Notes under the pieces: model-generated
The model's input: the letters and a program-made list of their open reading frames with translations, nothing else
Databases searched by the model: none
Told to the model about the DNA's origin: nothing
Assembly (NCBI GenBank): GCA_038093975.1
Contig: JBBPTG010000259.1
Location: 1 to 32,813, forward strand
Length of the DNA stretch: 32,813 nucleotides
Source: Chalciporus piperatus
Taxonomy: Eukaryota > Basidiomycota > Agaricomycetes > Boletales > Boletaceae
Reading direction: 5' to 3'
Position numbers and translations under genes: made by a program
Part shown: in pieces, positions 6,183 through 32,813 of the stretch
Position numbering within the stretch: position 1 is the first letter of the stretch
Layout: every line of letters begins with the position of its first letter

Positions 6183-6223
6183 ACATCAGCAAGACTGTAA
6201 AAAGTCTGAAATGACTGGAGCTT

Positions 6224-6253
6224 ACTTGTCTGACTGGAGCCAGTCAGACAAGT
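6224..6253. repeat. Subterminal 14-bp-stem hairpin, left arm
   Basis: ACTTGTCTGACTGG at 6224-6237 is followed by a 2-nt AG spacer and its exact reverse complement at 6240-6253. The mirror copy is at 9555-9584. Confidence 0.9.
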
Positions 6254-7030
6254 GAGCCAGTAGCCAAGTGCCCCAGGCATCCAGTAGTCTCAGTCATCCA
6301 GTAACCAAGTGTTCCAGTCATCCAATAGTCTCAGTCATCCAGTAGTCCAGTGAGTCAGTGCTCCAGTAACCTCAGTAGTCTCAGTCATCCAGTCATCTAG
6401 TCACCCAGTCAGTTCAGTGTGGCAGTGCTCCAGTGCTCCAGTCACCCAGTCAATTCAGTGTGGCAGTGCTCCAGTCATCCAGTCACCCAGTCAGTTCAGT
6501 GTGGCAGTGCTCCAGTGTTCCAGTCACCCAGTCAATTCAGTGTGGCAGTGCTCCAGTCATCCAGTCACCCAGTCAGTTCAGTGTGGCAGTGCTCCAGTGT
6601 TCCAGTCACCCAGTCAATTCAGTGTGGCAGTGCTCCAGTGCTACAGTCATCCAGTAATATCAGTAATATCAGTAATCCAGTAGCTCAGTAGCCCAGTACT
6701 TCAGTACTCCAGTAGCCCAGTAGTGCAGTAACTAAGCAATCCAGTGGTCCAGTAATCTTACAGGCAGTCAGTCACCCAGTAGCCAAGTCATCCAGTCATC
6801 TAGTAGCTCAGTCACCCAATAGCCAAGTATCCCAGTCATCCAGTCACTCAGTAGCTCAGTTACCCAGTTATCCAGTTATCCAGTCACTCAGTAGCTCAGT
6901 TACCCAGTTATCTAGTCACTCAGTCACTCAGTAGCTCAGTTACCCAGTTATCCAGTTATCCAGTCACTCAGTAGCTCAGTTACCCAGTTACCCAGTTATC
7001 TAGTCACTCAGTCACTCAGTCATCCAGTAC
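6240..7030. repeat. Degenerate 8-bp tandem repeats (AGTNNNCC type), left arm
   Basis: Almost the whole stretch parses into octamers of the form AGT + 2-3 variable bases + CC/TC (AGTCATCC, AGTCACCC, AGTGCTCC, AGTAGCTC, AGTTACCC, AGTTATCC), with rare 9-mers. Higher-order repeats lie on top: a block including CAGTGTGGCAGTGCTC repeats about every 60 bp at 6395-6650, and a block AGTCACTC-AGTAGCTC-AGTTACCC-AGTTATCC repeats at 6840-7020. The resulting open frames are low complexity and are not genes. Confidence 0.85.
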
Positions 7031-7133
7031 AATGAGCCAGCTCATTCTGTACTAGTATCTGTCACTCAAGGATCTAACTGGAAGCAGAGAGGGGTGACAA
7101 GCAATGATGACATTCAAGAAGTATCTACTACAT

Positions 7134-7530
7134 CAAGACTTCTAGCTAAGGTTGGAGGGAGGACTGAAGTGCAGCATGGGTGAGCTGGATGGATAAATGA
7201 GATTAATGACCAGGCCATGGAGAGCAAAGACTTACCTGGTTCAGAAAGGGAGGAGGATGGAAGGAGAGGACAATGGGTGAGCTGAATGGATGGATGAGGT
7301 CAGTGACTAGGCCAGAGAGAGCAAAGACTTACCTGGTTCAGAAAGGGAGGAGGATGGAAGGAGAGGACAATGGGTGAGCTGAATGGATGGATGAGGTCAG
7401 TGACTAGGCCAGAGAGAGCAAAGACTTACCTGGTTCAGAAAGGGAGGAGGATGGAAGGAGAGGACAGTGGGTGAGCTGGATGGATGAATGAGGTCAGTGA
7501 CGAGGCCAGAGAGTGCAAAGAAACATACCA
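7134..7530. repeat. 97-bp tandem repeats, left arm
   Basis: CTTACCTGGTTCAGAAAGGG recurs at 7231, 7328 and 7425, an exact 97-bp period, with a diverged copy near 7520. On the minus strand each unit holds a GTAAGT donor preceded by CAG, and a pyrimidine-rich acceptor-like end, so each looks like one 46-nt exon plus one 51-nt intron. Confidence 0.9.
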
Positions 7531-8279
7531 TGATGAACCGGTGTGCGCAGGCGTCCTCTGGTGTGCGGAAACGAGCGGTTGAGCTCGTTGGTGTGCGGAG
7601 AGTTGAAACGAGCGGTTGCACTCGGCGTTGTACAAGGAAGGAGGTGCGGGACGATCGAGGAGCGGAAGGAATTGAGTTGTACTCACCTTTGGTCACCGGC
7701 GGGGCTGTTGAGCCCACGCCGGCTTGCTTGTCGAGGACGAGAGTGGTTGAGGAAGAGTGGCGAGTTACGAACATGGCACAAGTTTGAAAGTCACGTGGTG
7801 GCGTAAGTTGAAAGTCACATGACGTTCAAACTTGCGCCACGTTCGCAACTGTCGTCGCTTCAAGTTCTCTTTCACTGGTACATTCCGCTCGTCCATAAGA
7901 CAGCCGGTGTGGGCTCGACGGCTCAACAGCCCACACCGGCACTGAAAGGTGAGTGCCCATCATCCACTGGCAACCCCATCCGCTCACCTCCCAATGATTC
8001 CGTGGCCCCATCCATGCAGCACCATCATCCCCACACATCCATGAGCGGAACCGCTCGTCAACGGCCTCGCAGCATCACCCCCCCAGCACAACGAGCGCAA
8101 CTGCCCGTTTCCGCTCACCAATGGTCCCACAGCCCCTTCCTCGCACATCCATCACTACAACAACTCAATTCCGCTCGTCAACGCTCATCATCGGTCCCAC
8201 GGCCCCATCGTCTCACAACAACGAGTGCAACCGCTCGTTTCCGCACACCAGAGGACACCCGCGCACACCGGTTCATCAT

Positions 8280-8632
8280 GGTACGTTTCTTTGCACTCTC
8301 TGGCCTCGTCACTGACCTCATTCATCCATCCAGCTCACCCACTGTCCTCTCCTTCCATCCTCCTCCCTTTCTGAACCAGGTAAGTCTTTGCTCTCTCTGG
8401 CCTAGTCACTGACCTCATCCATCCATTCAGCTCACCCATTGTCCTCTCCTTCCATCCTCCTCCCTTTCTGAACCAGGTAAGTCTTTGCTCTCCATGGCCT
8501 GGTCATTAATCTCATTCATCCATTCAGCTCACCCATTGTCCTCTCCTTCCATCCTCCTCCCTTTCTGAACCAGGTAAGTCTTTGCTCTCCATGGCCTGGT
8601 CATTAATCTCATTCATCCATCCAGCCCATGCT
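8280..8632. repeat. 97-bp tandem repeats, right arm
   Basis: This is the mirror of the left array. CCAG|GTAAGTC occurs at 8380, 8477 and 8574, and a diverged donor (GGTACGTTTC) lies near 8280. Between donors each unit reads as a 51-nt GTAAGT...ATTCAG intron with a CTGAC branch-like site, then a 46-nt exon starting CTCACCCA. Confidence 0.9.
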
Positions 8633-8759
8633 GCACTTCAGTCCTCCCTCCAACCTTAGCTAGAAGTCTTGATGTAGTAGATACTTCTTGAATGTCATCA
8701 TTGCTTGTCACCCCTCTCTGCTTCCAGTTAGATCCTTGAGTGACAGATACTAGTACAGA

Positions 8760-9550
8760 ATGAGCTGGCTCATTGTACTGGATGACTGAGTGACTGAGTG
8801 ACTAGATAACTGGGTAACTGGGTAACTGAGCTACTGAGTGACTGGATAACTGGATAACTGGGTAACTGAGCTACTGAGTGACTGAGTGACTAGATAACTG
8901 GGTAACTGAGCTACTGAGTGACTGAGTGACTAGATAACTGGGTAACTGAGCTACTGAGTGACTGGATAACTGGATAACTGGGTAACTGAGCTACTGAGTG
9001 ACTGAGTGACTAGATAACTGGGTAACTGAGCTACTGAGTGACTGGATAACTGGATAACTGGGTAACTGAGCTACTGAGTGACTGGATGACTGGGATACTT
9101 GGCTATTGGGTGACTGAGCTACTAGATGACTGGATGACTTGGCTACTGGGTGACTGAACTCACTTGCCAACTGAATTACTGGACCACTGGATTGCTTAGT
9201 TACTGCACTACTGGGCTACTGGAGTACTGAAGTACTGGGCTACTGAGCTACTGGATTACTGATATTACTGATATTACTGGATGACTGGAGCACTGGAGCA
9301 CTGCCACACTGAATTGACTGGGTGACTGGAACACTGGAGCACTGCCACACTGAACTGACTGGGTGACTGGATGACTGGAGCACTGCCACACTGAACTGAC
9401 TGGGTGACTAGATGACTGGATGACTGAGACTACTGAGGTTACTGGAGCACTGACTCACTGGACTACTGGATGACTGAGACTATTGGATGACTGGAACACT
9501 TGGTTACTGGATGACTGAGACTACTGGATGCCTGGGGCACTTGGCTACTG
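8760..9550. repeat. Degenerate 8-bp tandem repeats, right arm
   Basis: This is the reverse-complement counterpart of 6240-7030, reading as GGNNNACT-type octamers (GGGTAACT, GGATAACT, GAGCTACT). The block GAGCTACTGAGTGACT recurs about six times between 8825 and 9080, more than in the left arm, so the arms have gained or lost units independently. Confidence 0.85.
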
Positions 9551-9554
9551 GCTC

Positions 9555-9584
9555 ACTTGTCTGACTGGCTCCAGTCAGACAAGT
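9555..9584. repeat. Subterminal 14-bp-stem hairpin, right arm
   Basis: ACTTGTCTGACTGG at 9555-9568, a CT spacer, and its reverse complement at 9571-9584 mirror the hairpin at 6224-6253. Confidence 0.9.
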
Positions 9585-9607
9585 AAGCTCCAGTCATTTC
9601 AGACTTT

Positions 9608-10800
9608 TTACAGTCTTGCTGATGTTAGCATTCCCTCCAGTGTAGCCGACGTGAGAACAGCAATGTCATCCGGTGGGAGAGTGGTCAAGGCACGCTCGCC
9701 TCGGACCTCCCGCTCACATGTCTGCTTCCATTCCAAAAACAGACGCACGAGCTTTTTCTGGTCTTCTGCATGGTCGGTAAGCATGCCTTTGACCTTCTCG
9801 ACAAATTCCCTATAGTCCAAGGTCGAGCCCATGCACTGATTATATGTGCTGTACATCCCAGTGATGAGCTCTCGCCAGCCCGCCAACTGGGTCTCACTCG
9901 TATGGTTGATTTCGTGAGATATGCCCACAAATCTCGTCACCCCTGCATCTTCGCCTGGGAGCGAGTAGGTGATGTGATGAGATTGGTAATTGGTGTTCTT
10001 GTGCGTTGTGCCATCACTACTTAATGTGATACCTTTGAATTTTGAGAAGCTCGTCTGTCAAGCATAGCAATGTGTGGAGAATCACTGTGGTACGAACCTT
10101 TTGCTTTGCTGATCTCGTCCACTAACTGAACAGTTGCGGCTACCTCTCCCTCGAGCATAATCCGTCCTATGCTCCGCTCGCTAATCGATCCCTCTACCTC
10201 GATTCCGGCTGTGGCCGCGATCGCGTGGATTGTGTTTTCGATACTGGCGACAGGGATGTTGTGGATAGCCACAAGATCCCGCACCATATCCCGGGCGTCG
10301 TCCGTGATGATGCCATGATTTTTGAGGGTAAGTGTGGGCTTGGCAGGTGTTTGTTCGATTGCTGCAGCGACAGCCTTTTGTATAGCACGCTGAGTCTGCG
10401 CGGGTTTACGAGAGAGCCGGCGGGAAAGGGTTTTGTGGCGTGTGGTGAGTGAGTCGTTCTGTTGTTCGAGTGCATCGACTCGTTGACACAGAACCTCTGC
10501 CTTCCTGGCGAGGAGGCAGTTTTCAGCTTCGGCCTCTCGTGCACGCTTTTGTGCACGTTCAGCGTTCGCTTTGGCGCGTTCTTCACGTCGGACCGCATTT
10601 CGAAGTGTCTTCTTGATTTCTTTTAGCTTCGTGTCAATGCCGGACTGCAGGGAGGAAGGGATGTGGGTTGAGTCAGGGGTAATGACAGTGGGTGGTAAGT
10701 TTTCCTTTCGTAGTGGCTGGGTGGCATTCAGTTGCTCGACATGTGCCTTTTGAGCAGGGCTACGCTTTTTTCTTGGGTTCCAGCGATATCCCGAGGCCAT
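9608..10800 (-). pseudogene. Multicopy basidiomycete gene of unknown function, 3' end cut by palindrome
   Basis: Exon 1 is 10800-10098 and exon 2 is 10032-9608. The 65-nt intron (GTTCGT...TTCAAAG) restores one frame of 375 codons and joins the two halves of a conserved GITLSSDGTTHKN segment. The start is the ATG at 10800 (MASGYRWNPRKKRSPAQKAH). Residues about 60-120 are a charged coiled coil (repeated Glu/Arg/Ala). Then come a conserved helical region (ITDDARDMVRDLV ... SISERSIGRIMLEGEVA) and the HTSETQLAGW / DHAEDQKKL region. I recognise this arrangement from a large family of unknown function repeated across Agaricomycetes. The last codons (TSARL and stop) are supplied by the tip of the palindromic element, so the natural C-terminus is lost. 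No catalytic motif is visible. Confidence 0.7.
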
Positions 10801-23346: not shown

Positions 23347-24685
23347 ATGTCGTCACCTTCTCCTCAGGCTCGCGAACTCTTGCGGCAAAAATTTATGCTG
23401 CTTCGCTGGGCTGCAGCCATGGTAGCACAAATCATCATGGCAGCAGCCCTGGTCTACGCTGCTCCTCTATACAACAAACAACCCTATCACACATCTATTC
23501 TCAGTGGTCAGGCATGGGTACAAGAACTTCTCGATGGTCATCCGGATCGGATCAAATGTGAACTCGGGATGCGGAAGCATGTTTTTCAGCAGCTTGTTCA
23601 AGAGTTGCGTGAGATAGGTTTTGCCAACTCGCGTTATATCACTCTGGAAGAGCAAGTTGCTATTTTCTTGTACATGTCGGTCACTGGATTATCTAGTCGC
23701 CATGTTGGAGAGCGCTTTCAGCACTCCCCAACCACGATCACAAAGTATATCTCCATTTATTTATAATATTTTTGCTAAATACTCTTGTCTAGATATTTCA
23801 AGAAAATTTTGGTCGCTGTATCCTCTCCACCCTTCTATCCTAGATATGTTTTTCTCCCCCCTGACGACGCTCCAACTCCCCTCGACATTCGTTGCAATCC
23901 AAAGTTCTTCCCCTACTTTCGAGATGCTCTGGGTGCTATGGATGGGACACATATCAACTGTTGTCCCTCTGCGTCAGAGCGTCATTTGGCTCGGGATCGC
24001 AAAGGAGGTATTACTCAAAATTGCCTGGCATGCTGCTCATTCGACCTTCGCTTTCAATACATTCTCAGTGGATGGGATGGCTGTGCATCTGATGCCAGCA
24101 TGTATCAGGACGCACGTCTCTCCGATTTGTTTATCCCTCCTGGCAAATATTATCTTGCTGATGCTGGATTTGGCATTTGCAATGCACTTCTGGTGCCGTA
24201 TCGCAACACTCGATACCATTTGGCAGAGTGGGGTCGGGCCCAAGTACGGTGAGCAATTTTTTCATTTAGATATACATCCATTTAACCCAGGCCATCGAAG
24301 CCCTCAGACACCACAGGAGCTATACATTTTGCGACACGCATCTGCTAGAAATGCCGTTGAACATATCTTTGGGATCCTCAAGCGACGTTTTCGAATTCTT
24401 ATTCATGCACCAGAATTCAGCATGGCCAAGCAAGCTCGTATCCCCCCTGCTCTTGCCGCAATTCACAATTTTATTCGGGTTCATGATCCTACGGAGATTC
24501 AGGAGTTTCGCGATGTTCCAGAAAATGTTGACATGAACCCAGGTACACCGAGGGGAGTATTGGCAGAGGGACCTGCGACCCGTGCAGAAAAAGAGCAGGC
24601 AGGCAATTTCAGAGATGATCTTGCTCAGACAATGTGGGAGGATTATCTGGACCATATAGCAAGGAATGGGGCTGGTTTGGAGTAG
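23347..24685 (+). CDS. HARBI1-like DDE transposase, 3 exons, 412 aa
   Basis: Exons 23347-23744, 23793-24248 and 24301-24685 give 1239 nt in one frame. The last intron (24249-24300) ends at an AAG acceptor that yields AQVRPQTPQELYILRHASARN, the conserved junction of the family. The N-terminal helical part includes a HTH-like segment (LEEQVAIFLYMSVTGLSSRHVGERFQHSPTTITKY). The DDE_4 nuclease domain has its acidic residues in GAMDGTHI, YYLADAGF and NAVEHIFGILKRRF. The protein cuts and joins DNA at TWA sites and usually needs its Myb-like partner for nuclear import and binding. Start 23347 (MSSPSPQARELL) is chosen because it lies just inside the terminal repeat. An early hydrophobic stretch (AAAMVAQIIMAAALVYA) is unusual and may be a buried helix. 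All catalytic residues are present. Confidence 0.9.
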
Positions 24686-24704: not shown

Positions 24705-25427
24705 CTAAATAGTGGGACCAGTACTAGTACCATCCCTCTGTACAATCTTTCGCTGAATCCAGACACGTCGCAATCCCTCCGCCTCCGAACCCTGAATCAT
24801 CATGTAGGTATCAGCTGCTGCGACGTCAGCCTCAAAAACCTCAATCAAAGATGACATCTGCTCGTCCGAAAGATCCTTCTCTACCTTCAGTGCACATGCC
24901 ATCGCTTGGCGCTTGCGAATGGGAGAGAGCATCAATGTCACCACCGCATCCCAAACATCGCTCGTTGCATCATCTATGCTCGCCCCTGTCTCATCAGACC
25001 ATGCTGGAAAGCCCGATTGGCGCTTGATCTCGCAGATTATGGCCCATCTTTCCTTGAGCTTGTTGAATTTGAGTGACCTGTATCCTCGAATGTGGATAAC
25101 ACTCACCTTGGTCCACTTGTTCTTACATGCACTTGCATTGGTGGGACCTCCGAGTTTCTGGAACTCGGAGTCGGACAGACCTTCAGGGCAGGTCTGGAGA
25201 TGCTTCACAGAAGCCTCGAATGTGGTTTTCTTGAAGCTCATTCCATCTCCAGCTTCCGACTTGTGCTCGATAAAAAACTGGAGAAACCGCTCGACAACTG
25301 ATTCAGGCCACTTGGAGGTATCACTGGTGGGCTTTTTGGTTGGTTTTCCGGTGCCGGGAAGGGTTCCAGAGGTGTCCGGAATGGTATCGAGCACTGCCGG
25401 CGAGTGTGAAGCAGCCGATTTGGCCAT
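24705..25427 (-). CDS. Myb/SANT-like DNA-binding partner of the Harbinger transposase
   Basis: The gene starts at ATG 25427 (MAKSAASHSP), though the frame is open further upstream to 25484, and ends GPTI. A 48-nt in-frame intron (GTGAGT...AACAAG) probably separates NKWTK from LKERWAIICEIKRQSGF. If it is removed, the product is about 224 aa. The Trp-spaced helical block (SKWPESVVERFLQFFIEHKSEAG ... GMSFKKTTFEASVKHL ... ACKNKWTK ... ERWAIICEIKRQSGF.AWSDETG) fits the Myb/SANT-like domain of transposon-encoded partners and of host genes derived from them. It faces the transposase gene with 19 bp between the stops. The C-terminus is helical and acidic. The intron could be retained, since both forms stay in frame. 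Confidence 0.8.
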   Translation of the reverse strand: MAKSAASHSPAVLDTIPDTSGTLPGTGKPTKKPTSDTSKWPESVVERFLQFFIEHKSEAGDGMSFKKTTFEASVKHLQTCPEGLSDSEFQKLGGPTNASACKNKWTKVSVIHIRGYRSLKFNKLKERWAIICEIKRQSGFPAWSDETGASIDDATSDVWDAVVTLMLSPIRKRQAMACALKVEKDLSDEQMSSLIEVFEADVAAADTYMMIQGSEAEGLRRVWIQRKIVQRDGTSTGPTI

Positions 25428-25527
25428 AGATGATGAGCTGTAGGTAGTCTTGAGCTCGCACTCGAATCTATTACCGAGAGTCACATTTTGTCACAAATAA
25501 TCACACTTTTGTCACACGGTCACACGG

Positions 25528-25574: not shown

Positions 25575-25900
25575 TTAGGTTCCTTAGTACCAAACTCGCT
25601 GGTTCAAGCTATAGACTGTTCTCACTTGCTCAGTACGTTCTTTGGCTTGCCTCATAGACGGTCGGATCACCAGACCGGTAGACGGCCAAAGAGGCGCTCG
25701 CCGTGAGAGCTTGGTCAATCCCGACATTCTTTCCGCTCTCGTCTCATCCAGACTAACCTCCCTCAGCAATTACAGCACTCGAACGTTCACCAACGTTTAC
25801 ATATAACACACTCGACCATGTCTGACTGCAACGAAAGGACTAGGCAACAGTTCAAGCGTTTCCGCATCCTCGTTATCGGGCGCGCCAATGCTGGGAAAAC

Positions 25901-26376
25901 TGAAACGACTCAACTCAACTAAGAGCTAAGACTCACACTAGACAATAGCGAGCCGATGTACTTGGCTGAGGTTCGATGAGGAAACTCCAGGAGAACAAGA
26001 CTGGGGAGTCCAGTGCTTGTCGACCCGGGTTTATATACTATTGTCAATGTTTGTACATGTTGTGGCTAAACCTTATCGTAGGTGACTGGGTATGACTCAT
26101 ACTGACTACTAGCCAATGGCATAACTAGCTCTACTGCGGAATGAGTAAGCGTGAGTCATATGATGAGTAATGCTGACTGATGCTGACGAGTGAGCGGTGA
26201 GTCATCAGTTAGTAAGCGAAGGTCTAGACCTAGCTTATGTAAGTAAGTCACGTGATGCGATAAGATAAGATAACAAAAGAGAAAGTGAAACGACTAAGTC
26301 CATGAAACGAAGAGAAACCTAGTAAGCGTAATGGAATGTAGGGATGATTAGGATAAGGAATGGAGCGTTCGTAACA
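25901..26376 (-). mobile_element. Solo LTR, family A, copy 1
   Basis: On the minus strand it reads TGTTACGAACG ... CGTTTCA, 476 bp, and contains a TATATAAA box. It is flanked by AAAAC at 25896-25900 and 26377-26381, a perfect 5-bp target duplication. The duplication falls inside the Walker A codons (GGG AAA ACT) of the GTPase gene. The copy at 28485 is nearly identical. Confidence 0.95.
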
Positions 26377-27961
26377 AAAACTACGCTACTCCAGAGAATT
26401 TGCAAGACAACCGAGGCCCCGATCGTTCGCGATCACCGCGGTAAAGAGGCCACTTGATATCCGTCATTTCTAAGTACAAGAGGAATACTAATTGACCACT
26501 GTAGATCACTCTCGATCTCAGAGGAACCCAGGATGTGCGTATCTCGGTGATCGTTCCTGTGCTGCATACTTGACAATCTGCAACAGCGTGGCGAGCATGA
26601 CATTGAGCACGAGATATCTTTCAAAAGCAACGACCACTTTGTTTTTCATGATTCATGTGGTTTTGAGACGGGTAGAGTAGAGCAGATGAGCTTCGCAAAG
26701 TCCAGTCATTCATTGACAAGTGTGCGGGATTTGCGAAACTCTTAGACCGACTTCATGTGATATGGTTTGTCTGTTTCTATCATGATTATTGAATGGATCT
26801 CTCATGTTTTGCTATAGGTATTGCATTCCAATGGGTGATTCATGGCCCTTCACTGCTGCAGAAGAAGCTTTTTTCTCAGAGTGTGGTACAGGACAGGGTA
26901 AGCTACTTCACCTGTCTATTCATTTTCTAATTCAGTTATTAGTGCCTGTCATTGTGATTTTCACCAAGTTTGATGCATTGCATACAATTGCATTTGGCAA
27001 ACTCTTGTCACAAGGGAACTTAGGGAAGAGCCTTCAAGAGGCTGCTGCGGAGGCTCCTCAGCATGCAAACAAGATGTTTCAGGATGACAAATACCTGGAT
27101 TGGTTGGCTGCAACCAAGTTTCCACCAAAGAACCATGTCTGCCTTGCAAGTGAGTGTAATGGATTTATCATAAGCATGAATTGGCTGACTATAATGATGA
27201 AGACATGGAGAGAGAAGAGGCTGATTGTACTGAACTAATTGAGCCAACTGCTGCAGCACTGGATGATGAGATGCTGGAGTCCTTGCTTGTGTCAGCACAA
27301 TGCCATAATTTGGAAATATGTATGTCCTATGCTATCAAGAGGCAAGGTATTTTGGAAGGCACTTATTGGCAATAAGCTGAACTTGTCTAGGACTTTGAGA
27401 AGATATATATTAGAGATTGAACAATCCAACAAATCTCAGGGAACAGAAGAGAATTGGGAAATGCAGTGTAAAATGGCCATTTGGTTTCCACATATATTGG
27501 TAAGTCCCATGAATATGAGAGAATCAAGGGAATATTAATGGAGAACAGGTAAGCAACTGGTGTTCAATTGAATATTGTGATATTTGTGCTCACAGGTACC
27601 ATTGCCAGTGTATGTATTTTGATAGGTTGTAAGTTGATCTGATGGTGTCTTTCAAGTTGGATGCATGCTCACTGTGATGCCATTGCTTGTCTCCTGACAG
27701 GAAGTAAGTTCATCTCATGATATCTCTGAATGCATGCTTACTCTGATCTGATTGCTTGTGTCCTGGCAGTTGGTAAGTTGATCTGATGGTGTCTCTGGAT
27801 GCATGCTCACTCTGATGGCATTGCTTGTCTCCTGACAGGAAGTAAGTTCATCTCATGGTGCCTGTGGATGCATGCTCACATTGATTCCCTTGCTTGTTTC
27901 CTGACAGGAAGTAAGTTGATCTGATGGTATCTCTGAATGCATGCTTACTCTGATCTGATTG

Positions 27962-28415
27962 TGTTATGACTGGGTCACAACACAGCGGGGACTTAAGGCA
28001 ACACTAAGCCTTGCGAAGGGATATGCTGAGTACTAAAGCTTAATTGCGGTGAAGCAACAAATGGATTAGACTGGGGTCTGTGATAAGTACAGGGCTACTT
28101 ATATACTATTGAGAAGTGCGCACAGACCAACAGCCGAATAAGGAAAACACAAAGGGAAAGATAGATAAGGTAAATGGTACGATGATAAGAAAAGGTACCA
28201 GGCACGGATTAGGGTCTAGACCATGACATCATTGCTGACTCATCTAAGTCTGGACCTTTGTCACGTGACCTGATTATGTAATAGTTTACGTAATGCTACA
28301 GGGACTACCGGAGCGGATTAAGATGAATCCGGCTTGACCCCTAAGTTGTAGACAAAGTCCAGAGTTCGAATACCGTTGTAGGCAAAAGTTTGAAAAGTTT
28401 TTAAATACTATAACA
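27962..28415. mobile_element. Solo LTR, family B
   Basis: 454 bp running TGTTATGAC ... ACTATAACA, with TGTTAT/ATAACA ends and a 5-bp GATTG duplication at 27957-27961 and 28416-28420. It sits inside one unit of the 69-bp array. It differs from family A over most of its length. A TATA-like TATATAAG on the minus strand suggests minus orientation, but this is not certain. Confidence 0.9.
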
Positions 28416-28484
28416 GATTGCTTGTGTCCTGGCAGTTTGTAAGTTGATCTGATGGTGCCTCTGGATGCATGCTCACTCTGATGC

Positions 28485-28961
28485 CGAAACGACTCAACTC
28501 AACTAAGAGCTAAGACTCACACTAGACAATAGCGAGCCGAGGAACTTGGCTGAGCTTTGATGAGGAAACTCCAGGAGAACAAGACTGGGGAGTCCAGTGC
28601 TTGTCGACCTGGGTTTATATATTATTGGCAGTGTTTGTACATGTTGTGACTAAACCTTATCGTAGGTGACTGGGTATGACTCATAATGACTACTAGCCAA
28701 TGGCGTAACTAGCTCTACTGCGGAATGAGTAAGCGTGAGTCATATGATGAGTAATGCTGACTGATGCTGACGAATGAGCGGTGAGTCATCAGTTAGTAAG
28801 CGAAGATCTAGACCTTGCTTATGTAAGTAAGTCACATGATGTGATAAGATAAGATAACAAAAGTGAAAGTGAAACGACTAAGTCCATGAAACGAAGAGAA
28901 ACCTAGTAAGCGTAATGGAATGAAGGCATGATTAGGATAAGGAAATGGAGCGTTCGTAACA
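28485..28961 (-). mobile_element. Solo LTR, family A, copy 2
   Basis: 477 bp, nearly identical to 25901-26376. On the minus strand it starts TGTTACGAACG and ends CGTTTCG, with one substitution at the last base. The 5-bp target duplication GATGC is at 28480-28484 and 28962-28966. It is inserted in the next unit of the 69-bp array after family B. Confidence 0.95.
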
Positions 28962-29648
28962 GATGCCATTGCTTGTCTCCTGACAGGAAGTAAGTTCATC
29001 TCATGGTGCCTGTGGATGCTTGCTCACTATGATTCCATTGCTTGTATCCTGCTAGCCAGTGAGTTGATTTGATTGTCCCTGTGGATGCATGCTCACTCTG
29101 GTCTGATTGCTTGTGTCCTGACAGCTTGTAAGTTGATGTGATGGTGCCTCTGGATGCATGCTCACTATGATTCCCTTGCTGTGTCCTGACAGGGAGTGAG
29201 TTGATATGATGGTCCCTGTGGATGCATGCTCACTCTGATCCCATTGCTTGTGTCCTGATAGGAAGTAAGTTGATCTGATGGTGCCTCTGGATGCATGCTC
29301 ACTGTGATTCCATTGCTTGTATCCCAACAGCTTGTAAGTTGATATGATGGTGTCTCTGGATGCATGCTCACCCTGTATCTCATTGCTTGTGTACTGACTT
29401 GTTTTTTTCAATCCAGTTGGTAAGCTGTACTGTTGTCTTTGATTATTGCAAACATTACTGTTTCTTTAGATGGTAAGCCCACTTTCTTGAATTTATTATA
29501 TCTCATTTCTTGATAAAATATTATTATGTCTTCTATAGTTTTCTGATCTTCAGGCACCTCAAGCTCAAAGTACTCTTCACTCCATGGTTGGTTTATGTAC
29601 TCATCTGTACTTCCCCTTTCTCATTGTGTACAGTTTGAGATCTCTACT

Positions 29649-30116
29649 TGTTACGATCATTCATTCTTTCCTTTCTCATTACCTTGTACTAAGTCCTAGT
29701 CGCTGGTTCGAGTCCTGCCTAGGCCTCTTATTTCTTGCTTGCTTTAGTCAGCGGATGTTCTTCGATGTTCTTTCACATTCCATACTTCGTCATCGCTGAC
29801 TCGTACTCTTACCAAGCATGACTCATTCCTATTCGTCATAGCTTGTTCTTACACATTCCAACCGGTTCCATGCCTGCCCTTAACTCGTTTCTCTACTTAT
29901 ATAAACCCTCGAGTTTCTCCTGTAACCTTAACTTAGACCTACGCAATCTAGCTTGGTCATTCCTTGCTTCCTGTGAACCCTCTGAGAGTCACCGTCCCAC
30001 TCTTGAACGGACGCTAGGCCTTAACGTGGACATCCCATCGTTAGGCTACCTTTGAAACCCTTGCTTTGACTAGGCTTTTGTGTCTACGCTTTGACCTACC
30101 CGGTACAAGCGTAACA
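29649..30116 (+). repeat. 5' LTR of the Ty3/gypsy element (468 bp)
   Basis: It starts TGTTACG and ends CGTAACA, a 7-bp inverted repeat with TG...CA tips. Similarity to the minus-strand LTR fragment at 5657-6057 fixes the left edge. It contains the TATA box and predicted RNA start, and also GGTTCGAGTCC at 29705-29715, an exact match to the Pol III B-box consensus. The preceding 5 bp are CTACT; the partner duplication is outside the window. Confidence 0.9.
29898..29940 (+). promoter_or_regulatory. LTR core promoter: TATA box and predicted transcription start
   Basis: TATATAAA lies at 29898-29905. About 30 nt downstream, AACTTAGACCT (29930-29940) is the exact complement of the site next to the LTR end. 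In Tf1/sushi-type elements the RNA begins with such an 11-nt stretch, so 29930 is the likely start. The spacing from the TATA box supports this. Confidence 0.65.
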
Positions 30117-30118
30117 AA

Positions 30119-30129
30119 AGGTCTAAGTT
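30119..30129 (+). promoter_or_regulatory. Self-priming primer-binding site
   Basis: AGGTCTAAGTT starts 2 nt after the LTR end and is the exact reverse complement of 29930-29940. No TGG-initiated tRNA-type binding site is present. In Tf1 and related elements the 5' end of the genomic RNA folds back, pairs here and is cut to prime minus-strand DNA. Confidence 0.7.
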
Positions 30130-30164
30130 ACCCCTGAAGGCTACCTTCGCTGTAGACCTCCACC

Positions 30165-31457
30165 ATTTCCCAACGACCTCGCCTCGACACCTCTCGCTGG
30201 GGCCCCCCACGAGAGACCGCTAATCCACAGAACCCCGAATCTTCTGACTCGGGCTCACCTGAAGAGGAAGACCCCTCTAACCCCTACGACACCTCGGATC
30301 TTTACGACGAACCAATCACCACCCAAGAGGAACAAGAAGAAACCCTTCACCTCTCCCACGAATTTTCCTCAGCTGTAACCATCCCAAGGTCACCAACACC
30401 ACCGTCACCGACCCCAATATCCCGAAGAGCTCCACAGTTCCCTGTGTCGCCTGCTCCCCCACGAACCCCAGCTTTCCCCACTCCTTCCCTTCCCGCGCCC
30501 GCATTTGCACCAGGGGCGTATCAGATACCCCCTACCTTCGTAAATCCCATGTCGTCCTCAAAACCCACTGAACTCCGCATCGGAGCCCCGGACGCCTTTG
30601 ATGGCTCCTTCGAGAAAAGCACCGCTTGGATGAATTCCATCCAATTCTATCTCACCGTCAACGGCGACGTATACAACACAGATCCCAAGAAGATCGCCTT
30701 CGCCTTATCCTACATGTCTAAAGGATCAGCGGCCACCTGGGCTGCCACCTTCCGCCGCAAAGCCATCACCGGCGCTACCGTCACCATGGGCACTTGGGCC
30801 CAATTTATCACTGATTTCGAAACGGCATTCAAACATCACGATACCGTAGGAAATGCCGTTGCCTGGCTTTCCACCAAACGCATGAAACCTCTCAAGAACG
30901 GAGAATATTCCCCTTCCCTCTCGGAATTTATTTCGAGTTTCCAAAACCAAGTCGCCCTGTCTGGCATCATCGACAACAACGTCCTAATCGGATATTTCTC
31001 CGCAGGGATATCTATCTCCCTTATGAGAAGAGTCAATAGCATGGATACCGTCCCTACCACGATCGAGGATTGGTACAAACGCACCACCCAGTTCCAGACT
31101 CAATGGGAACATGCCAATGAAATCGCGAATCGCAATCGTAACCCCGCCAAGCCTTTCCGTCCATTCTCCTCTGCCAATCACTCTACCCCCGCCAGGAATC
31201 CCAATGCCATGGACGTCGACGCCATCCGTATCTCCAAGCTCACTCCTGAGGAGCGGAAACGCTGCCAGGAGAAGGGACTCTGCTTCCGCTGCAGGAAAGC
31301 TGGACATCGGTCCAACGCCTGCCCAGAATTCTCCTCAAACCAGAAAACCCCGAGGAAGGTTCAAAAGGTTGAGGAAGAAATTCCCTCGCTGATCGAGATA
31401 GATGATGAGGATGAAACCACCGTTCGTAAAGTAGCCTTTGTCACAAAGGGTTTTTAG
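30165..31457 (+). CDS. gag: Gag of the Ty3/gypsy element
   Basis: The frame is open from just after TAG at 30154-30156 to TAG 31455-31457. The codon in the expected start position is ATT (30165), in a strong CCACC context; the first in-frame ATG is at 30549 (MSSSKPTELRIG). From 30165 the product is 430 aa. It has an acidic, Pro-rich N-terminus, then a capsid-like helical domain (RIGAPDAFDGSFEKSTAWMN ... WAQFITDFETAFKHH) and a C-terminal CCHC knuckle (CFRCRKAGHRSNAC), ending VAFVTKGF. It packages element RNA in the cytoplasm. The likely ATG-to-ATT change would make this copy depend on a non-AUG start or on another copy's Gag. Confidence 0.85.
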   Translation: MSQRPRLDTSRWGPPRETANPQNPESSDSGSPEEEDPSNPYDTSDLYDEPITTQEEQEETLHLSHEFSSAVTIPRSPTPPSPTPISRRAPQFPVSPAPPRTPAFPTPSLPAPAFAPGAYQIPPTFVNPMSSSKPTELRIGAPDAFDGSFEKSTAWMNSIQFYLTVNGDVYNTDPKKIAFALSYMSKGSAATWAATFRRKAITGATVTMGTWAQFITDFETAFKHHDTVGNAVAWLSTKRMKPLKNGEYSPSLSEFISSFQNQVALSGIIDNNVLIGYFSAGISISLMRRVNSMDTVPTTIEDWYKRTTQFQTQWEHANEIANRNRNPAKPFRPFSSANHSTPARNPNAMDVDAIRISKLTPEERKRCQEKGLCFRCRKAGHRSNACPEFSSNQKTPRKVQKVEEEIPSLIEIDDEDETTVRKVAFVTKGF

Positions 31458-32813
31458 ACCGGGAAGCTCTGCCGACGCAAGCTTCCCCAGTCACGTGTGC
31501 ACCTGTACTTGTAAAGTCGCGAAAGCGCTCTATGCAAATTCCCATACAGATTATCGTTCCCTCGCACACGATGAAAGCCGTCGAAACCCGCGCCCTCATT
31601 GATAGCGGCGCAGACATCTCCTGCATCGATTGGGCCTTCGTACGTAAAAATCGAATCCCAACCACTCGACTCGAAACCCCCATTCGAGTTCGAAACGTCG
31701 ACCAAACCGCAAACAAAAGCGGAATGATACTCTTCACCACCACCCTCTTCCTCGACATCGAAGGACTTGCGCAAGAAGTAACCTTCCACGTCATGAACTG
31801 TGGAAACGAAAACGTCATCCTAGGTCTCCCATGGCTCGAAAAGGCTAACCCAATCATCGATTGGCGTCGACGAACCCTCTCACTGTCAGAATCTATCGAC
31901 GAGTCAAAAAGGTTATATGCTATGCACGCTTCAGCCTGTAAAACCAATGACCGACTCTTCACTCGACCTACTCCTCCCCCTCGACACTCCTATGTAACCC
32001 CGGAGATCGACAAACAACTCTATGACTACCTAGATTCTGAGACCGAATCCACCTTCCTCAATCGCGCCTATGAAAACCATACCCTAAACCGCATCATTCG
32101 TTGCGGCTCACGCTTTGTCCCAAACCACGTTGTTGCTCGCCTCACCAGAGCTACGGAACTTGCAATCGCGGCCGAATTGGCCAAACCTAAATCTACCCTT
32201 CCGAGAGAATATGCCAAATACGCCTCGGTTTTTGACGAACCTTCGGCCGGCCACCTTCCTCCGTCTCGAATTTACGACCACGAGATTAACCTGAAGGAAT
32301 CCTTCGTCCCCAAAATCGGGAAACTCTATCCGCTATCCCCAGACGAGAAAAAAGCCACAGAAGACTTCCTTGAAGAAAATCTTCGCACCGGAAAGATACG
32401 TCCTTCCAATTCCCCCCAAGCATCTCCCTTCTTCTTTGTCAAAAAGAAAGACGGAAAACTCCGACCCTGTCAGGACTATCGATATCTGAATGAACACACT
32501 ACCCGCGACGCCTACCCCCTTCCCCTTATTGGAGATCTCGTTGACAAACTCAAAGACGCTAAGATCTTCACTAAATTCGACGTACGATGGGGTTACAATA
32601 ATGTCCGTATCAAAGACGGACACCAATGGAAAGCTGCCTTCCTCACTCACAAAGGCCTCTTTGAACCGACTGTGATGTTCTTTGGGCTGAACAACTCCCC
32701 GGCTACCTTCCAACGCTTCATGAACGACTCTTTTAGAGACATGATAGCTGAAGGATGGCTCGTCATCTATATGGACGACCTTCTCATCTTCTCCCCCGAC
32801 GACACCACTCACA
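31442..32813 (+). CDS. pol: Pol of the Ty3/gypsy element: protease and reverse transcriptase (partial)
   Basis: The frame is -1 relative to gag and open without a stop from the gag end to the window edge (more than 450 codons). The aspartic protease has ALIDSGADISCI (DSG at 31601-31609) and the paired NVILGLPWL element. The reverse transcriptase begins near KLYPLSPDEKKA and shows SPFFFVKKKDGKLRPCQDYR, then FTKFDVRWGYNNVRI, FGLNNSPATFQRFMN and the catalytic YMDD (32768-32779). Fungal gypsy enzymes more often have Y-I/L-DD here, but Met is within the known range. RNase H, integrase and any chromodomain would follow outside. No own start codon is needed if expressed by the -1 frameshift. Confidence 0.9.
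31448..31457 (+). promoter_or_regulatory. Candidate -1 ribosomal frameshift site at the gag-pol junction
   Basis: GGGTTTT at 31448-31454 fits the slippery rule X XXY YYZ in the gag frame (AAG GGT TTT) and is directly followed by the gag stop TAG. Slipping back one base enters the pol frame (TTA GAC CGG GAA), which is open to the end of the window. A downstream stimulatory structure was not assessed. Confidence 0.65.

Follow-up and report, generated by a model that had tools for sequence, protein, structure and literature searches.

Arrays of putative single-codon exons in a GTPase gene family of the mushroom Chalciporus piperatus

Can a segment of a protein be encoded one codon per exon, or are splice signals set three bases apart mere decoys within a longer intron? 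This question is raised by positions 1 to 32,813 of contig JBBPTG010000259.1 of Chalciporus piperatus, the whole stretch of 32,813 nucleotides analysed here (the window). A first-pass annotation had described consecutive three-nucleotide exons between strong splice signals, carried by near-identical units of 69 bp. A pattern search bears out the exons themselves: on the forward strand, between 27626 and 29472, 14 three-nucleotide stretches each have an AG immediately on their 5′ side and a GT(A/G)AG(T/C) immediately on their 3′ side. The first twelve are GTT (V, 27626-27628), GAA (E, 27701-27703), TTG (L, 27770-27772), GAA (E, 27839-27841), GAA (E, 27908-27910), TTT (F, 28436-28438), GAA (E, 28987-28989), CCA (P, 29056-29058), CTT (L, 29125-29127), GGA (G, 29193-29195), GAA (E, 29262-29264) and CTT (L, 29331-29333). 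The thirteenth, TTG (L, 29417-29419), is by alignment identical in all five loci of the 69-bp type; at the fourteenth, ATG (M, 29470-29472), the other four such loci have AAG, AAT or GAG. Read in order, the triplets give VELEEF EPLGELLM. A fifteenth match of the pattern, TTA at 28793, was dropped as it falls inside an LTR.

The regularity of the array is more limited. The typical unit of the window comprises a 66-base intron and three bases, but its copies are about 80% alike by TRF, which falls short of near-identity. The spacing of 69 bases holds for 7 of the 13 intervals between triplets, the other six being 75, 528, 551, 68, 86 and 53. The 14 triplets are all present, but they do not follow each other in strict succession, because solo LTRs occupy two of the array introns: one at 27962-28415 with a 5-bp target repeat (GATTG), and one in the following intron at 28486-28961 with a 6-bp target repeat (GATGCC).

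The array belongs to a damaged gene copy on the same strand. By tblastn, the 5′ part of the first exon, which contains the P-loop GRANAGKT, lies at 25818-25901. It is interrupted by a solo LTR (25902-26376) with 6-bp direct repeats at both sides; this LTR and the one at 28486-28961 share 95.8% identity. The rest of this exon is found beyond the LTR at 26380-26448, and further GTPase-domain exons and their introns extend over 26587-27147 (both by tblastn), with a frame change inside the third exon, which tblastn matches in two frames (26587-26703 and 26676-26768). They are followed by an exon ending in SYAIKR (27203-27341), whose limits were set by eye from a gene model of contig C128 and whose donor is GC in the window copy. 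The last ordinary exon before the array (27391-27499) ends in WFPHIL and has the donor GTAAGT at 27500. Downstream of the array, alignment with other loci identifies an exon, FSDLQAPQAQSTLHSM, at 29539-29586. This is the first of the four post-array exons known from C128; the later C-terminal-domain exons, which are present at the other seven loci, have no match in the window.

The window resembles the C128 gene as far as 29648. The remains of an LTR retrotransposon, with reverse transcriptase and retroviral protease above the Pfam cut-offs and a weak Ty3-capsid match below the cut-off, occupy 29650-32813, the window end cutting the element. Since the similarity stops at 29648, the retrotransposon sits in the expected place of the 3′ exons. 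The LTR insertions, the frame change and the missing C-terminal exons mark the window copy as a relic, a disrupted gene which probably makes no protein.

Is the array a singular feature of this relic? A genome search for the 69-bp unit, proposed with the first-pass annotation, was productive: DNA searches that used the units as queries revealed seven more arrays in the 35.5-Mb genome. Arrays of 69-bp units occur in the window and on contigs C20, C110, C128 and C220; arrays of 75-bp units occur on C229 and, twice, on C122. The three unit searches matched only the eight array loci, and both the match counts and the total are lower bounds, which sets the number of loci at at least eight. Furthermore, the pattern GTAAG..AGNNNGTAAG..AGNNNGTAAG, which describes three donors in tandem with three-nucleotide exons, has 148 matches in the genome versus 1 for the reversed control; the 100 listed among these 148 all lie in five array contigs.

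GTPase-family exons stand upstream of the array at seven of the eight loci, the contig ending first at C229, and C-terminal-domain exons stand downstream at seven, all but the window. The sequences GRANAGKT and FTKFDAL, which conform to the P-loop pattern GxxxxGKT and to TKxD, were found at C128, C20, C110 and both C122 loci. For C128, a gene model built by eye comprises seven GTPase exons, the array, four exons and a stop, and is open throughout. The reading frame remains open on both sides of the array, and the flanking exons have the same phase as the triplets; the units of this locus found by profile search translate as IEELDEDDLDRLRSLRSLRPEHFLFELCGARGYER. The array had been assigned to the 3′ end of the gene, but the four downstream coding exons of C128 position it between two domains. 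The flanks beside the arrays of C128 and C220 are closely similar. C220 is without its 5′ part: homology to C128 begins inside the third exon, where, as read by eye, a sequence like the LTRs of the window adjoins. In a family copy on C3, matches stop before the array junction.

The larger collection allows the triplets to be compared with the sequence around them. Unit profiles were seeded with 95 (69-type) and 50 (75-type) segments, all carrying the splice motif, and were searched at E 0.01 or better. They recovered 225 units in the eight loci (130 of the 69-type and 95 of the 75-type): 13 in the window, 20 in C20, 19 in C110, 35 in C128, 43 in C220, 48 in C229, and 33 and 14 in the two C122 arrays. 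AG-NNN-GT is found in 216 of the 225 units, that is in 128/130 of the 69-type and 88/95 of the 75-type. Seven of the nine units without it are in one C122 array (L056, 33 units), where GC replaces GT at the donor in three (of which a single one keeps a clean triplet), five bases separate AG from GT in another and three are otherwise damaged. This array may be decaying or may partly use GC-AG introns, and some of its irregular units would shift the frame.

None of the 216 triplets is a stop codon, while about 10 stops are expected after within-column shuffling. By the same shuffling, the 69-type has 0 stops where 3.9 are expected (n=128, P=0.009) and the 75-type 0 where 6.5 are expected (n=88, P=0.0002), P values which serve as guides, as duplication relates the units and independence is overstated, and as the seeds held the splice motif. 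After removal of identical units there are still 0 stops in 112 (69-type) and 0 in 73 (75-type) triplets. The codons are diverse, 24 different ones being used in the 69-type and 15 in the 75-type. Triplet positions 1 and 2 are the columns of highest entropy in both unit types, with 1.77 and 1.84 bits in the 69-type and 2.00 and 1.70 bits in the 75-type; the next highest column reaches 1.59 and 1.40 bits, respectively. The acceptor AG has 0 bits in both types. The donor GT has 0 bits in the 69-type and 0 and 0.29 bits in the 75-type, in which the second base varies.

Additional information comes from triplets that do not occur. In the 75-type, the third base is often G, and CAG, AAG and TAG are absent where 15.2 are expected; GAG, which is a poor acceptor, appears 7 times. 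A triplet of C, A or T followed by AG would create a second acceptor three bases downstream, and the codon could then be dropped. Their absence therefore points to use of the upstream AG and suggests that it truly serves as the acceptor in the 75-type arrays. For the 69-type, only 0.7 such triplets are expected, too few to test avoidance.

Other splice signals are likewise consistent. The donor is GTAAGT in 191 of 216 units versus 2 of the 10 ordinary introns of the C128 model, and the acceptor is CAG or TAG in nearly all units. The consensus of both unit types contains a branch-point-like CTCAC about 29 bases before the acceptor AG, its A having 0.24 and 0 bits. Translation of the units by read-through was considered and rejected: a stop lies at offset +6 in the triplet frame in 110/128 units of the 69-type and 93/94 of the 75-type, and 32 of 200 introns have a length that is not a multiple of three.

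These observations bear directly on a second reading offered by the first-pass annotation, in which the array is a minisatellite inside one intron, with the repeated splice signals as decoys; the whole array, about 1-3.5 kb, would then be excised in one step. Tandem repeats are common in introns and, as all the exons have three nucleotides, skipping of the whole array would also keep the frame. However, 216 triplets without a stop, their hypervariability between nearly invariant AG and GT, and the missing CAG, AAG and TAG triplets of the 75-type are left unexplained by such decoys.

Further evidence on this point comes from relatives in other species. Three protein searches gave 455, 713 and 1094 matches; the 120 best of each led to relatives in Boletales and other Agaricomycetes, and 211 distinct proteins were fetched. 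WFP, the sequence at the end of the last exon before the array, is found after residue 180 in 93 of the 211. In 55 of these 93, a V followed by R, S or C occurs within 7 residues after WFP, as gene models running into a GTRAG or similar donor would give; the exon end in relatives would thus often lie at the same place as in this genome. A direct example is provided by P0086 and P0091, a gene model of Suillus cothurnatus; the two share 98.9% identity over 285 aa. After WFPQTTM, P0091 continues with VRLITSLPAS and then ends, whereas P0086 continues with MAEAWDDYNDDYWLDDDAGDF; the P0091 model appears to run into an intron at the array junction.

P0086 is one of 16 proteins of source ‘jgi’, seven of which (P0011, P0013, P0014, P0015, P0016, P0086 and P0122) have an insert at the junction; D, E, L, R, Y, N, H or W abound in it, and the C-terminal domain or the end of the protein follows. 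We infer that these seven represent transcripts, because their frames are uninterrupted over a region of seven exons (as counted in this genome) and their contigs measure 1.6-2.6 kb. Five others (P0068, P0090, P0191, P0193 and P0201) run into intron-like sequence; P0106 is ambiguous, P0190 shows an ordinary linker of short length, and the sequences of P0018 and P0131 stop before that point. Seven inserts, those of the above proteins except P0122 and that of P0001, were scored by their fit to the amino-acid make-up of the triplets of this genome versus the part before WFP, within limits set by eye. Six of them (P0011, P0013-P0016 and P0086) score +4.8 to +20.7 bits, above any equally long stretch that precedes WFP in their own protein. 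The insert of P0001 (source lgn) scores -1.0 bits, and its composition does not match the arrays.

Four Suillus gene models (P0007, P0019, P0026 and P0071) have a short linker in place of the insert, as expected if the array were removed as one intron. Set against them are the inserts of the expected kind at the same junction in the transcript-like relatives, and we regard a minisatellite with decoy sites as improbable. Three other Suillus gene models (P0057, P0073 and P0080) contain what appear to be translated array introns, with repeats of the VSVLILLRARPMLIEVIAHSSQ type and, in P0057, a period of 24 residues. This suggests that exons of one or two codons exist in Suillus too.

The absence of stops, a triplet that is the most variable part between near-invariant AG and GT, the lack of CAG, AAG and TAG in the 75-type and the matching inserts in transcript-like relatives together lead us to consider it very probable that these are genuine arrays of single-codon exons, spliced and retained, in a mushroom GTPase gene family. 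Such an arrangement, in which tandem duplication of an intron unit leaves a GTPase gene with a series of one-codon exons, had been suggested for the window, and this proposal fits the data best. For the C. piperatus arrays themselves, we infer splicing from the genomic sequence.

A feature next to the arrays points to another process. Just upstream of the first unit, at 27547-27550 on the forward strand, alignment reveals an acceptor and a donor which abut with zero bases between them (AG|GTAAGC), and this site is conserved in all five 69-type loci (the window and L051-L054). It could be an exon of zero length or a point of recursive splicing. Its resemblance to a ratchet point would favour recursive splicing of a long intron, in which each AG-NNN-GT is a stepping point and most triplets are finally removed. 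Coding content is not required of a ratchet point, yet the triplets are without stops and agree with the inserts seen in transcript-like relatives; as an account of the arrays, recursive splicing seems to us highly improbable.

If single-codon exons are indeed spliced, a mechanism can be proposed. Each unit would be an ordinary short spliceosomal intron, mostly of 66 or 72 bases, together with a one-codon exon, and recombination would have copied this unit in tandem. Where paralogues are less damaged, the introns would be recognised as introns and excised singly, probably in order from the 5′ end, since a three-nucleotide exon could hardly seat two complexes and would not be recognisable across itself. 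U1 and U2AF/U2 should clash over three bases. Between the small-GTPase domain and the C-terminal domain, the retained codons would then encode a connecting stretch whose length ranges from about 14 to nearly 50 residues and in which charged residues, leucine or tyrosine are abundant. As each repeat would add exactly one codon, the gain, loss or shuffling of units would alter the protein residue by residue without a frameshift.

Retention need not be uniform. Under a mixed use of the units, which overlaps with retained single-codon exons, frequent skipping would produce many isoforms per cell and no fixed peptide. With symmetric three-nucleotide exons and similar introns, any donor may pair with any acceptor, and one relative suggests a retained intron. 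Compared with its close relative P0013, P0122 has 17 extra residues inside the insert, beginning with AS and ending with YQ, which is what retention of a phase-0 GC-AG intron of 51 bases, placed between two codons, would produce, judged from the protein alone. Short fungal introns are usually paired locally by intron definition, however; mixed use is in our opinion possible but doubtful.

What kind of protein would carry such a segment? In Pfam searches, MMR_HSR1 is above the cut-off in two of four relatives and just below it in the other two, the MMR_HSR1 and Arf matches being weak. With the structure model of P0086, the top Foldseek match is a bacterial dynamin-like protein, and IIGP1 is matched with E 1.1e-5 and a TM-score of about 0.32. 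Immunity-related GTPases and bacterial dynamin-like proteins, which are among the best PDB matches of this model, share the order of a GTPase followed by a helical region, but the TM-scores are only about 0.3. The insert is the part of lowest confidence in the P0086 model (residues 297-321 under 50); in that of P0016 it is predicted to form long helices, with modest confidence (about 50-75).

Comparison of arrays provides a view of their evolution. Between C128 (35 units) and C220 (43 units), the 9 first and 10 last units are in line and have identical codons, while the middle is not alignable unit by unit. The flanks of these outer units are so alike that only about one exon change is expected, which makes them uninformative on constraint. 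Among unit pairs, a flank difference of 3-6% accompanies differences at 35% of codon sites, and one of 6-9% differences at 51%. Diversifying selection is at most a possible reading of these differences: certain columns of the intron vary freely as well (up to 1.59 bits), and the flanks include constrained sites. Recombination between introns can, as the layout of the units implies, add or remove codons without a frameshift. The arrays might even act as a codon-by-codon diversity generator, in which recombination between similar introns keeps adding, deleting or reordering single codons, the peptides between the GTPase and a C-terminal helical domain differ among paralogues and haplotypes, diversifying selection acts on the codon and a possible recognition surface arises in IRG-like GTPases; we judge this rather unlikely.

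Several known systems share single traits with these arrays. The micro-exon genes (MEGs) of Schistosoma are described in PMC10526429 as consisting largely of very short exons, 10-20 per gene and 3-81 bp in size. The present genes have many symmetric exons, but confined to one segment between ordinary exons (in the C128 model). MEG introns range from 100 to almost 5000 bp and exon size varies; the present arrays combine one-codon exons with tandem introns mostly of 66-72 bp, up to 48 units per locus. In Drosophila homothorax, a 3-bp exon is spliced into mRNA (PMC7392893); it is isolated and alternative and belongs to no array, in contrast to the tandem arrays here. Among fungi, the account of Trichoderma Xlr2 in PMC11121469 presents a single switch-like micro-exon in a filamentous fungus, which shares with our case a fungal micro-exon but has only one, and Phanerochaete P450 genes perhaps have micro-exons too (PMC1184071). 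Introner-like elements of fungi (PMC4457414) are described as invasive introns which multiply as similar copies among genes. Multiplication by copying is shared, whereas the present copies stand head to tail at one site in one gene family; no dispersal of units among unrelated genes was found by the genome searches, which matched the array loci only. In the open-licence PMC literature, with bioRxiv preprints outside it and few subscription papers, no description of tandem arrays of one-codon exons was found. Relative to that literature, the arrays would be an extreme gene architecture, apparently not described before.

Dozens of successive one-codon exons would test the limits of splice-site recognition, and the order and fidelity with which such similar introns are removed are directly testable. 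Duplication of introns would also offer a route for proteins to grow by single residues. In addition, 55 of the 93 relatives that reach the junction seem to run into a donor, which suggests truncated or incorrect gene models at this position in a large GTPase family of Agaricomycetes.

The window contains other repeated and mobile sequences. An inverted repeat at 6183-7595 and 8214-9625 has arms of about 1.4 kb, whose pieces are 92-97% complementary, around a 618-nt centre. Tandem repeats of 8 to 97 bp (CCAGT and its complement) make up the arms, and the whole (6183-9625) resembles a foldback element or the subterminal repeats known from DNA elements; the ORF in its centre (7819-8412) has no Pfam match. 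A pair of ORFs lies at 23621-24685 and 24705-25484: the first resembles a DDE_Tnp_4 transposase, just below the Pfam cut-off, and its opposite-strand neighbour has no Pfam match. Lastly, the ORF at 1292-2473 matches an integrase core and a retroviral SH3-like domain in Pfam, with weaker gag pre-integrase matches.
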